A program made the translations under genes and the position numbers. Positions 22,336-25,890 of a stretch of 64,000 nucleotides of DNA are shown here, one piece after another; position 1 is the first letter of the stretch; every line of letters begins with the position of its first letter. Where the stretch lies: contig NC_014963.1 in assembly GCF_000179915.2 (NCBI RefSeq), forward strand, positions 2,108,001 through 2,172,000. The letters are read 5' to 3'. The notes beneath the pieces are model-generated. The model was not told where the DNA came from and did no database searches. It saw nothing but the letters and a program-made list of their open reading frames with translations. Origin of the DNA: Terriglobus saanensis SP1PR4 (GTDB taxonomy: Bacteria; Acidobacteriota; Terriglobia; Terriglobales; Acidobacteriaceae).

Positions 22336-22929
22336 TTATGGGACAGCTGCTGTCTCCGTGTTGGCTGCGCGCTTTTGCGCCAAGGGGCGAATCGCGGTGA
22401 GGAACTCTTCGGCCGTGTAGGATCTGTTCGCCTCCAGCATAGGCGGGGCGGGGGCGAGCGGATAGATGATGTCCGTTCCCCCCGGGTCGGACTTGAGCCA
22501 GATCGCCATGAGGCCGATCGCGGAGAAGCGCAGAGCCCTTGCCTCGTACGATCCTTTACTCACGGAGGGGAGGGTCGCAACCTGCGTGAAGCCTTTGGAA
22601 GTGGCTTCTACGAAGGGCCCGTAGTTCAAGTTAGCAAGCAGCGATGCCTTTCCTGAGGCGTCGGTGTGTACTTCGGCTGCTGCCACCGAAGCGCCGGTGG
22701 CGGCTACGTAATAGCGGAACCCAGTGGCATGGGCGGTTTCCAATCCTCCTCCTTTTGCGATCTCGTCAGCGTGGAGGTCGTAGATAGCGTGCGGCGGCGT
22801 AACGGTCAGTGCGCTGAAATTTAAGGCGCGAAGGGCCGGAGGCTTGTTCTCCCGGACAGCGAGACGGTCCAGGCCAGCGCGGACCGTCTCGGAGCCGTTC
22901 TGAGGTTCGGTTGCGAATCGAATTGCCAT
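22336..22929 (-). CDS. Protein of unknown function encoded with the propeller-protease
   Basis: A 197-residue protein with no signal sequence, membrane helix or Cys residue that I can see. Segments such as GFRYYVAATGAS, SYEARALRFSAIGLM and IIYPLAPAPPMLEA look well structured but match no family I recognise. It starts 19 bp after the stop of the protease gene, on the same strand, with a ribosome site ggaggaca before ATG 22929. The two are therefore probably one operon. A role as inhibitor, chaperone or export partner of the protease is a natural hypothesis but is inference from position alone. Confidence 0.65.
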   Translation of the reverse strand: MAIRFATEPQNGSETVRAGLDRLAVRENKPPALRALNFSALTVTPPHAIYDLHADEIAKGGGLETAHATGFRYYVAATGASVAAAEVHTDASGKASLLANLNYGPFVEATSKGFTQVATLPSVSKGSYEARALRFSAIGLMAIWLKSDPGGTDIIYPLAPAPPMLEANRSYTAEEFLTAIRPLAQKRAANTETAAVP

Positions 22930-22947
22930 GATGTCCTCCCTGAAAGT

Positions 22948-24489
22948 CTAGTGGGTTAGATAGCTGTTTCCCCAGTTGGCCCCGCCGTTGTAGGAGTGGG
23001 GGAAGGTTCCAAAGTCCTGCGTCGAGTGTCCGTAGATGGGGTCCTGGAGATCGATCGTAGGATAGTCTGGGCTGGTGACGTCATATCCGTCGATCGCCGG
23101 GTTATGACCACCACCGCCGTACCAGTAGACGGCGATGGAGATGGGATGGGACGCGTTGATCTCCCGCATCACTGCAGCAAGTGACAGGGACCCTCCAGTC
23201 GTCGTGTTGAGATGTCCTGTGATGGTGAGCGCCTTATCCGGATACCAGGGTTGGTTGCAGGACGTGCTGCTGCCGTTGGTGCAGCATGTGGTTTGGTTAT
23301 AGGCCTTGTTGACGAGGGTGCACTGCGTCCACGTCGATGCCGCGTTGTAGTACTTGGTGATACTGCAAGTCGTCGCGGACCAGCACCACTCGGACTCCAC
23401 CTGATGCTGCTCGACGAGAGCGAGCGTCCGGGAGTCACCGACAGCGGCCAGATTGAAGACGCCGCCGAGCGGCTCCCAACCTGTCGCCGATGGCCCCCAC
23501 GCGCTGCCGTTCCAATACTTGTGATACATCTGGTTGTCGGTGCCAAGGCCAAAGATATCCAAGCGATTGGCAGCCCACGCAGTGACTGCGGGGGCGCTGT
23601 TGAAGACACCACCGAGTGCTTCCCAGCCGGTTATGGAAGGATGCCATGCGGTTCCGTCCCAGGCCTTGTGGAACATTTGGTTGTCGGTGCCGAGGCCGAA
23701 GAGGTCGAGACGGTTATGCGCCCAGGCGACTACGGCAGGAGGACTGTCGAAGACCCCACCGAATGCCGTCCACCCCGTTACGGAAGGCGACCAGGCATTG
23801 ACGTTCCATGCCTTGTGGTACATCTGGTTGTCTGTGCCCAGACCGAAGAGGTCGATGCGATTGGGTCCCCAGCAGACGGCGGCAGGAGGACTATCGAAGA
23901 CGCCGCCCAGCGCCTCCCAACCGGTGACCGACGGACCCCATGAGCTTCCGTTCCAGTACTTGTGATACATCTGATTGTCCGTACCGAGGCCGAAGAGGTC
24001 GAGACGGTTGGGACCCCAGGACACTACGGCAGGGGGAGTGTTGAAGATGCCGCCAAGCGCCTCCCAGCCTGTGACCGAAGGCCCCCAAGCAGTACCATTC
24101 CAATACTTGTGGTACATCTGGTTGTCCGTGCCGAGTCCAAAGAGATCGATGCGGTTGGCACCCCAGCAGACCGCTACAGGCCGGCTATTGAAGACGCCAC
24201 CGAACGGCGTCCATCCTGTCGGCGAAGGCGACCAGGCGTTGACGTTCCAGGCCTTGTGGTACATCTGATTATCGGTACCGAGGCCGAAAAGATCGAGACG
24301 ATTCGGCCCCCAACTAACGGCCTCTGGAGCACTGTTGAAGATGCCGCCGAGTGCCTCCCAGCCGGTAGGCGACGGACCCCAGGCGCTGCCGTTCCAATAC
24401 TTGTGAAACATCTCGTTATTGGTGCCAAGGCCAAAAATATCGAGGCGATTGGCACTCCAGGATACCGCTGAGATTGCGATGGGCTTCAT
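22948..24489 (-). CDS. Seven-bladed PLL/DUF346-type beta-propeller fused to a papain-like cysteine protease
   Basis: The 513-residue protein has two parts. Residues 10-351 are seven tandem repeats of 49 residues (the last 48), each with 'W-x-x-NRLDLFGLGTDNQMYHK' and a later TGWEALGG, as in DUF346 and the PLL-type bacterial lectins; seven blades would close a propeller. Residues 352-513 resemble C70/AvrRpt2-like papain-fold proteases: Gln363, Cys369 (SEWCWSAT), His462 (GGGHNPAIDGYD) and Asp483 (LQDPIYG), with Gln six residues before Cys as in papain. Several extra Cys (CC at 402-403) could form disulfides. There is no signal peptide, so export would need another route. A sugar-targeted protease is a reasonable inference. 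Confidence 0.85.
   Translation of the reverse strand: MKPIAISAVSWSANRLDIFGLGTNNEMFHKYWNGSAWGPSPTGWEALGGIFNSAPEAVSWGPNRLDLFGLGTDNQMYHKAWNVNAWSPSPTGWTPFGGVFNSRPVAVCWGANRIDLFGLGTDNQMYHKYWNGTAWGPSVTGWEALGGIFNTPPAVVSWGPNRLDLFGLGTDNQMYHKYWNGSSWGPSVTGWEALGGVFDSPPAAVCWGPNRIDLFGLGTDNQMYHKAWNVNAWSPSVTGWTAFGGVFDSPPAVVAWAHNRLDLFGLGTDNQMFHKAWDGTAWHPSITGWEALGGVFNSAPAVTAWAANRLDIFGLGTDNQMYHKYWNGSAWGPSATGWEPLGGVFNLAAVGDSRTLALVEQHQVESEWCWSATTCSITKYYNAASTWTQCTLVNKAYNQTTCCTNGSSTSCNQPWYPDKALTITGHLNTTTGGSLSLAAVMREINASHPISIAVYWYGGGGHNPAIDGYDVTSPDYPTIDLQDPIYGHSTQDFGTFPHSYNGGANWGNSYLTH
23437..24462 (-). repeat. Seven tandem 147-bp coding repeats
   Basis: The propeller half of the protease gene is built of seven direct repeats of 147 bp (last one 144 bp), each one blade. 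Alternate copies are most alike: blades 2 and 5 share the sequence KAWNVNAWSPS, while blades 1, 3, 4 and 7 share KYWNG. This pattern points to duplication of multi-blade blocks. Confidence 0.9.
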
Positions 24490-25798: not shown

Positions 25799-25890
25799 TG
25801 GCGGAGAGGGAGGGATTCGAACCCCCGGTACCCGCGAAGGTACGTCTGATTTCGAGTCAGGTGCATTCAACCGGGCTCTGCCACCTCTCC
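25799..25890 (-). tRNA. tRNA-Ser (anticodon CGA)
   Basis: A 92-nt class II tRNA read on the minus strand. The acceptor arms GGAGAGG and CCTCTCC pair fully, followed by discriminator G and an encoded CCA. The anticodon loop is CTCGAAA, with CGA at 25852-25854, reading UCG. A long variable arm (ACGTACC...GGTACC region) and the T-loop GGTTCGAATCC are present. A terminator lies just downstream. Confidence 0.97.

Follow-up and report, generated by a model that had tools for sequence, protein, structure and literature searches.

In the acidobacterium Terriglobus saanensis SP1PR4, we analyzed a stretch of 64,000 nucleotides (hereafter, the window) that encodes two adjoining genes on its minus strand. 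The first (P0001; 513 amino acids; 22948..24489) is predicted to be a leaderless protein that joins a lectin-type propeller to a papain-like protease of the C70 type. The second (P0002; 197 amino acids; 22336..22929) belongs to a family of partner proteins that, in the genomes we searched, mostly travels with this protease subfamily, either as an adjacent gene or fused to it. Sequence comparisons bear out the predicted domain make-up, the catalytic residues, the pairing, the shared compartment of the exported pairs, and the exchange of N-terminal domains among relatives. Our working proposal, which in our view could go either way, is that the two genes form a protease-control module: a leaderless lectin-protease that is held in check by a dedicated partner and is active outside the cell.

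The propeller occupies residues 1-343 (23461..24489), which divide into seven blades of 49 residues with pairwise identities of 55-84% (mean 71%). DUF346 (PF03984) matches P0001 in 7 stretches (E = 1.1e-51; 172.7 bits, with a cut-off of 22), and residues 6-345 align to the solved Photorhabdus lectin PHL (5mxe; E = 1.5e-44). The window propeller misses the cut-off for NCBIfam's CV39L lectin (NF052350; 90.2 of 350 bits). A homolog from a Nocardia plasmid (P0005) passes the cut-off for beta_propeller_lectin (NF052348) with 286.5 bits. The propeller is predicted to bind sugars. The original prediction saw no signal peptide on P0001, and by a crude hydrophobicity measure we likewise found no strongly hydrophobic stretch at its N-terminus. 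In this, P0001 resembles the seven-bladed, DUF346-type PLL and PHL proteins of Photorhabdus. Reportedly, no signal peptides are recognized in PLLs, although PLL2 and PLL3 were detected outside the cell (PMC12203525). Those proteins are lectins only, whereas about 168 residues of protease follow the propeller here. An open frame of 243 amino acids runs antisense to the propeller (23212-23943, plus strand); we read it as a by-product of the repeats and not as a gene.

The rest of P0001 (residues 346-513; 22951..23454) is the papain-like part. Peptidase_C70 (PF12385) matches residues 357-491 with 27.2 bits (cut-off 19). By analogy with papain, Gln363 (23401..23403) would be the oxyanion-hole residue, Cys369 (23383..23385) the catalytic cysteine, His462 (23104..23106) the catalytic histidine, and Asp483 (23041..23043) the third catalytic residue. 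In an 84-row alignment, the glutamine and the cysteine are each conserved in 83 of the 83 rows that have a letter there, and the histidine and the aspartate in 84 of 84. This confirms the original description of the gene as seven blades followed by a papain-type domain with these four residues. Four further cysteines (390, 402, 403, and 411; 23257..23322) are kept in 83-84 of the 84 rows and, by eye, also in lipoprotein forms of the protease. They would suit disulfides outside the cytosol, with zinc as a possible alternative. Family C70 is described as including AvrRpt2 and EvpQ (PMC7991086). P0001 resembles them in its PF12385 score and its catalytic residues; it differs in its fusion to a lectin-type propeller, in being leaderless, and in having a partner gene.

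For the protease fold, we relied on a structure model of a relative, L080, in which protease and partner are naturally fused and which stands in for the window protease. The model is moderate (mean predicted local distance difference test, or pLDDT, 77.3; predicted template modeling score, or pTM, 0.72; residues 40-67 below 50). Its top five matches among solved folds are all staphopains (E = 8e-4 to 2.2e-3).

The two genes are separated by 18 bp (22930..22947) and not by the 19 bp first given. This gap includes a ribosome-binding-site-like GGAGGA, 4 bases ahead of the partner's ATG, and AGGAGAG lies just ahead of the protease start. A promoter scan of the locus found nothing. Judging by the long coding repeat, the intact catalytic set, and the recurrence of both genes side by side in other phyla, the pair is more than a chance arrangement.

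To describe the pairing, we begin with the protease. We scanned a single genome of each species, using six aligned proteases that have partners as the query, and our counts cover the best 80 of 191 relatives. The partner profile matched at 80 of the 80 loci: the partner is the next gene at 52, with gaps of -4 to 46 bp, and is fused to the C-terminus of the protease at 28. A first profile, built from 11 seeds that had been found independently, was enough to match all 80 loci, and only 80 of 4,397 mechanically called open reading frames (ORFs) matched. The paired taxa include Actinomycetota, Pseudomonadota, Bacteroidota, Acidobacteriota, Verrucomicrobiota, and archaea. Distances between protease chains correlate with distances between partner chains (r = 0.64, n = 45; none of 2000 permutations reached this value), which any co-inherited pair would be expected to show.

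Other searches began with the partner. When P0002 served as the query, matches came from 2 of the 200 genomes in the window's family: its own genome and G082, where the partner gene directly follows that of a C70 protease with neither leader nor propeller. A four-sequence partner profile matched 6 of 396 genomes of the phylum. Apart from the window's own genome, the partner comes after a C70-like protease in 5 of 5 of these, in one case (G380) with both in a single ORF. The partner is also encoded on three plasmid records, from Nocardia, Rhizobium, and Azospirillum, and is paired in 3 of 3. The Nocardia plasmid carries a full-length homolog of the window's propeller-protease (33% identity over 100%), and in the Rhizobium pair the protease domain comes first and other repeats lie behind it. 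These search sets overlap: L081 and G380/L038 are one and the same locus, and L099 has its match in the locus of the Azospirillum plasmid.

In three other phyla, a 48-row partner profile matched 21 of 842 genomes, 3 of which were chosen centers. We judged 2 of the other 18 matches to be false and 16 to be credible, and the credible ones comprise 8 paired or fused partners and 8 orphans. The two rejected candidates, L152 and L159 (weak matches, E = 1.6e-4 and 6.3e-4), are long frames that resemble a galactokinase gene and an antisense frame. In the 14.5 kb analyzed for each of the orphan partners (L160-L167), no protease was seen. In 7 of the 8 orphan genomes, the protease profile had no match at E <= 0.001; the remaining genome has a match, on a different contig. 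Partner homologs mostly accompany the protease, and the exceptions from the partner-first searches are these 8 orphans, which look like one Streptomyces-type actinomycete clade. Orphan partners occur in 8 genomes, 7 of which have no detected protease of this type, but 0 of the 80 close relatives of the protease lack a partner, which is the asymmetry expected of an inhibitor. By eye, at least three of L160-L167 show a similar neighboring gene, which begins with MGEKV and has the look of a glutamate-cysteine ligase.

Within the window's family, 10 other genomes had a match to the protease; one of them has the partner (G082), and four have a lipoprotein form of the partner. Another protein from this family (L021:4901-6628, minus strand) consists of propeller-like AWKG repeats, without a Pfam match, fused to a C70 protease, and has no visible partner. 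The C70-like protease at L019:3522-6902 lies between genes of unknown family whose starts resemble each other.

The lipoprotein forms bear on where the two proteins act. Four family proteases (L017, L018, L020, and L022) have a lipobox by eye, and the next gene after each also encodes a lipobox protein that is homologous to the partner. As a group, these four proteins match the partner family in a profile-profile comparison (one comparison; E = 8.8e-10 over 163 columns). Against the single profile, three have E = 1.7e-6, 3.1e-5, and 5.1e-5, and L018 has only 0.2. At L153 and L158, both members of the pair have leader-like N-termini, and in L158 the gene order is reversed. In the exported pairs that we found, both members thus look exported. 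By the crude hydrophobicity measure, 0 of the protease ORFs and 1 of the 52 separate partners at the 80 loci reached 2.0, and the window's protease and partner ORFs score 1.25 and 1.14. Nine exported controls ranged from 1.88 to 2.97, with 8 of the 9 at 2.0 or above; one leaderless row (L078; 1.95) falls inside this range. On three Streptomyces plasmids (L042-L044), the gene after that of a secreted papain-like protease encodes another secreted protein, of about 290-300 amino acids. We do not claim this protein as a homolog of the partner; it aligns in register, but with E = 0.073 and a probability of 0.8%.

The partner was originally suggested to be either an inhibitor or an export partner. 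Because the partners of exported proteases look exported too, and because one clade fuses the partner to the protease, a role in export is weakened; a role as a putative inhibitor is the better of the two options. Neither of the outcomes that would have counted against the original idea was seen: a fold lacking a papain site, as judged from the L080 model, or partner homologs located mostly away from the protease.

P0002 was first described as belonging to no recognized family, and indeed it has zero matches to Pfam or NCBIfam at E <= 10. Folded together with 47 relatives, it gave a confident alpha/beta model (mean pLDDT 94.1; pTM 0.88). In a Foldseek search with this model, none of the 475 matches had E <= 0.001, and nothing above chance level matched when PDB sequences were searched with a profile, so we rejected its assignment to a known fold. 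Among the best 50 of the 475 fold matches, prostaphopain B has the highest query TM-score (0.36), at rank 24, and is not significant (E = 0.68); it may be a hint that the partner has a pro-domain-like shape, and nothing beyond that. By description, no staphostatin is among those best 50, and neither the lack of a Pfam match nor the length of 197 amino acids points to one.

The C-termini of partners are often acidic and end in small residues. A glycine is among the last two residues in 34 of 46 non-redundant partners, as compared to 19% of 759 background ORFs (many of which are not genes), and a DDxMGA tail is near-invariant in the fused clade. The corresponding site in the window partner is its last 8 residues (22339..22362); this protein ends in TETAAVP, and the lipoprotein partners also lack the tail.

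To examine the history of the protease, we built a tree of 60 rows, which comprise 54 of the 80 relatives (26 near-copies or fragments were dropped) and the proteases of the window, Nocardia, Rhizobium, G082, and two lipoprotein forms. The 19 fused rows form one clade (support 99/100, and present in 99% of bootstrap trees) that spans six phyla; the fusion therefore arose once and then spread, and we rejected the 28 fusions as independent evidence. The window row sits on a long branch and its placement is unsure. If we label as extended the 17 rows with an N-terminal extension and the Rhizobium row with its C-terminal one, this state changes 9 times on the tree, and at least three of the changes are on well-supported branches.

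More than 75 residues precede the protease in 26 of the 80 ORFs, in some cases only from mechanical starts. We scanned 19 of these 26 against Pfam, and 10 of the 19 against NCBIfam as well. Lectin-named families scored over the cut-off in 5 of 19: Fungal_lectin in L047 and L114, Tectonin in L048, B_lectin in L082, and beta_propeller_lectin in L051. BTRD1, which is not a known lectin, did so in 3 of 19 (L049, L100, and L104). There were narrow misses for L046 (173.8 of 200 bits, lectin) and L067 (21.7 of 22.8, AbfB). Outside the 80, L142 carries DUF346 and L157 carries BTRD1. We set aside repeat matches to unrelated models, such as PapC_C, Kazal, and DUF2857, as chance. As judged from these family matches, the N-terminal domain is swapped among relatives, with DUF346, tectonin, fungal-lectin, B-lectin, and BTRD1 types in that place.

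At home, the pair appears to be an accessory element. The genome of T. saanensis SP1PR4 (5.1 Mb in a single contig) has one PF12385 protein, and neither gene turned up in single-query searches, which covered 7 genomes of the same genus. The nearest relative, as judged by zwf (82% DNA identity), is similar up to the end of zwf, just before the place of the pair, which is why we consider the pair to be accessory. A tRNA-Ser gene (CGA; 25799-25890, minus strand) lies about 1.3 kb from the pair. Among phages and viral contigs there was no match, so we rejected a phage origin.

Given these observations, we consider it very likely that the protease and the partner have a functional partnership, and the protein probably acts outside the cell that produces it. 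We mildly favor the view that the partner is an inhibitor or a trans-acting pro-domain. Just short of an even bet, in our estimate, is that the protein is directed against predators or other eukaryotes rather than bacteria. The binding, the inhibition, the release, the recognition of sugars, and the target are all predicted steps, and they might fit together as follows. Inside the producing cell, the partner would bind the protease domain and keep it inactive or in a pro-form. Release by lysis, predation, or delivery, rather than secretion, would free the lectin-protease. The lectin ring would then anchor the protein to sugars of another cell or of a predator, the partner would be lost or cleaved, and the protease would cut target proteins. 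The pair may thus be a weapon that is stored for defense. In outline, this combines a lectin-protease like the Marasmius oreades agglutinin (MOA) with a dedicated control gene as in staphopain-staphostatin or SpeB-Spi.

MOA carries its lectin at the N-terminus; it is a cytosolic protein that is toxic to feeding nematodes, and we know of no partner gene for it. We take PF18021 and PF18022 to be the families of its protease; neither is among the six Pfam families that matched the window pair up to E = 10. MOA is described as a fungal chimerolectin whose single chain holds both a lectin and a papain-like cysteine protease (PMC8244254, PMC10318531). By family match, P0001 likewise appears to place lectin-type and papain-like protease domains in one chain. 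MOA has a beta-trefoil lectin, a Ca/Mn-dependent protease, and other Pfam families, whereas the window pair has a seven-bladed propeller, a C70-type protease, a partner gene, and a prokaryotic host.

To our knowledge, the staphopain, SpeB, and Bfp proteases carry no lectin. In staphopain-staphostatin, SpeB-Spi, and Bfp-Bfi from Bacteroides, the gene for a papain-fold protease is reported to lie beside that of a specific inhibitor, and Spi is described as a propeptide analog (PMC2873492). The same source gives the Bacteroides proteases and their putative inhibitors as predicted to be exported or lipoproteins, which resembles our exported pairs, where both members also look exported. The inhibitors differ: Bfi has 116-138 amino acids and staphostatin is lipocalin-like, according to that source, while the partner has 197 amino acids, an alpha/beta model, and no Pfam or significant PDB fold match.

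Several points weigh against our proposal. Inhibition is a prediction, and a fused partner might just as well serve in folding or in substrate binding. The queries of the protease-first scan all had partners, so that 80/80 holds for close relatives only, and many of the 80 loci are near-copies (46 are left after a redundancy filter); similarly, the 28 fusions amount to one event. In the window's family, 5 of the 10 other protease-matched genomes have no visible partner (G129, G034, G078, G142, and G096). Among plasmids with a related protease, the partner is present in 4 of the 8 records that we opened, out of 15 that matched; by the partner profile, it is missing from one Tistrella and three Streptomyces records. 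Eight genomes carry the partner alone. The pro-domain-like fold match of the partner is not significant (E = 0.68), and the window's own partner lacks the Gly-ended tail. The propeller misses the cut-off of NCBIfam's beta_propeller_lectin (NF052348; 79.3 of 200 bits). The original idea that it is a targeting device gains from the other lectin-type domains that relatives carry in its place and loses from the 11 of 19 scanned extended relatives that match no lectin or BTRD1 family over the cut-off.

Alternatively, the partner might be a dedicated chaperone or an activating subunit, separate or fused, on which the protease depends for its folding, stability, or cleavage. A stable subunit would explain the near-constant co-occurrence and the fused clade as well as an inhibitor would, and the exported pairs share a compartment. 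But a dedicated chaperone would not be expected to occur as an orphan, as the partner does in 7 of 8 genomes where no protease was detected, and papain-fold relatives without a visible partner exist, so the fold needs none in general. We consider this explanation rather unlikely.

An antibacterial effector with its immunity protein seems quite improbable. Under this explanation, the protease would be delivered into or onto rival bacteria, the lectin would aim it at bacterial glycans, and the partner would protect the producer and its kin. Orphan partners do resemble orphan immunity genes, and one pair, on a Burkholderia plasmid, lies 2-4 kb from annotated toxin genes of the type VI secretion system (T6SS) type. 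Also, lectin-aimed antibacterial toxins exist: in the umbrella toxins of Streptomyces, swappable propeller and bulb lectin subunits are described as aiming the toxic activity (PMC13274773). Umbrella toxins are multi-subunit particles, while the protein considered here is a single leaderless chain with its own protease. Against this explanation, we noticed no delivery tag, in some relatives both proteins look exported through ordinary leaders, and no secretion or defense family recurs among 113 neighbors of relatives.

These 113 neighbors comprise 101 of the 185 listed by our script and 12 that were hand-picked from L016 and L034-L037, and no family is present in more than 4. The PADLOC tally peaks at 4 members, with kinase-type models, and the four Pfam kinases fit the loci whose neighbors were added by hand. 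In the acidobacterial loci L034, L035, L036, and L037, the pair is within a few kb of apparent Ser/Thr kinase genes (Pkinase, 4). A sigma factor of the extracytoplasmic function (ECF) type presumably accompanies at least two of them (Sigma70_ECF, 2). The Nocardia pair (L026:2363-8591) is on a plasmid near mobilization genes and a gene annotated as a Pycsar system effector, and its partner ORF as annotated starts 225 bp late. The Rhizobium pair (L027:1744-6288) is preceded by genes for an AAA ATPase and for a protein that weakly matches HNH, an arrangement reminiscent of Septu-type defense genes. The Pycsar and AAA/HNH neighbors raised the idea of a defense system, which we rejected, as no defense or secretion family recurs among the 113. 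Similarly, we saw no co-encoded system that would export the pair.

A scavenging digestive protease is very improbable. It would be freed on lysis, stick to glycoproteins, and degrade them for food, and the partner would only guard the cytosol. This would be consistent with a single-copy, accessory gene in a free-living genome and with exported homologous pairs in the same family, but a leaderless protein makes a poor digestive enzyme, and repeated swaps of lectin-type domains suggest changing targets.

C39-type peptidases cut after Gly-Gly/Ala, and the glycine near the end of 34 of 46 partners and the DDxMGA of the fused clade might suggest that the partner is a substrate or carrier whose tail the protease trims to yield an effector, but we consider this highly improbable, as the tail is already C-terminal, with little to remove, and both the window partner and the lipoprotein partners lack it.

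Returning to the control module, a broader version of it, which we think unlikely as a whole, would describe horizontally spread, leaderless chimerolectins of bacteria and some archaea. These would share a C70 chassis, a swapped set of sugar-binding domains (PLL propeller, tectonin, fungal-lectin type, bulb lectin, trefoil-like, and perhaps BTRD1), and a control protein of a new class for cysteine proteases, a detachable pro-domain at the C-terminal side, whose acidic, Gly-ended tail perhaps sits in the active-site cleft as a reaction product would. Such proteins would be inert in the reducing cytosol and active once the cell is eaten or lysed, as disulfides form and the partner is lost, and they would be a prokaryotic counterpart of the mushroom defense lectins.

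Among the open-access papers that our searches listed, we recognized no description of the pair, the partner family, or its spread. By family match, the protein belongs to DUF346 and Peptidase_C70, and what appears to be new relative to those papers is the combination, the partner family, and how widely it is spread. If our proposal is correct, then a family that matches nothing in Pfam, NCBIfam, or the PDB would join the few known classes of control proteins for bacterial cysteine proteases. Many hypothetical proteins that are encoded beside a “papain-like cysteine protease family protein” would gain a label. The pair also makes it directly testable what leaderless bacterial propeller lectins aim at. 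Finally, the mushroom design of a lectin plus a papain-like protease would have a widespread prokaryotic parallel, in which the lectin-type domains are exchangeable.

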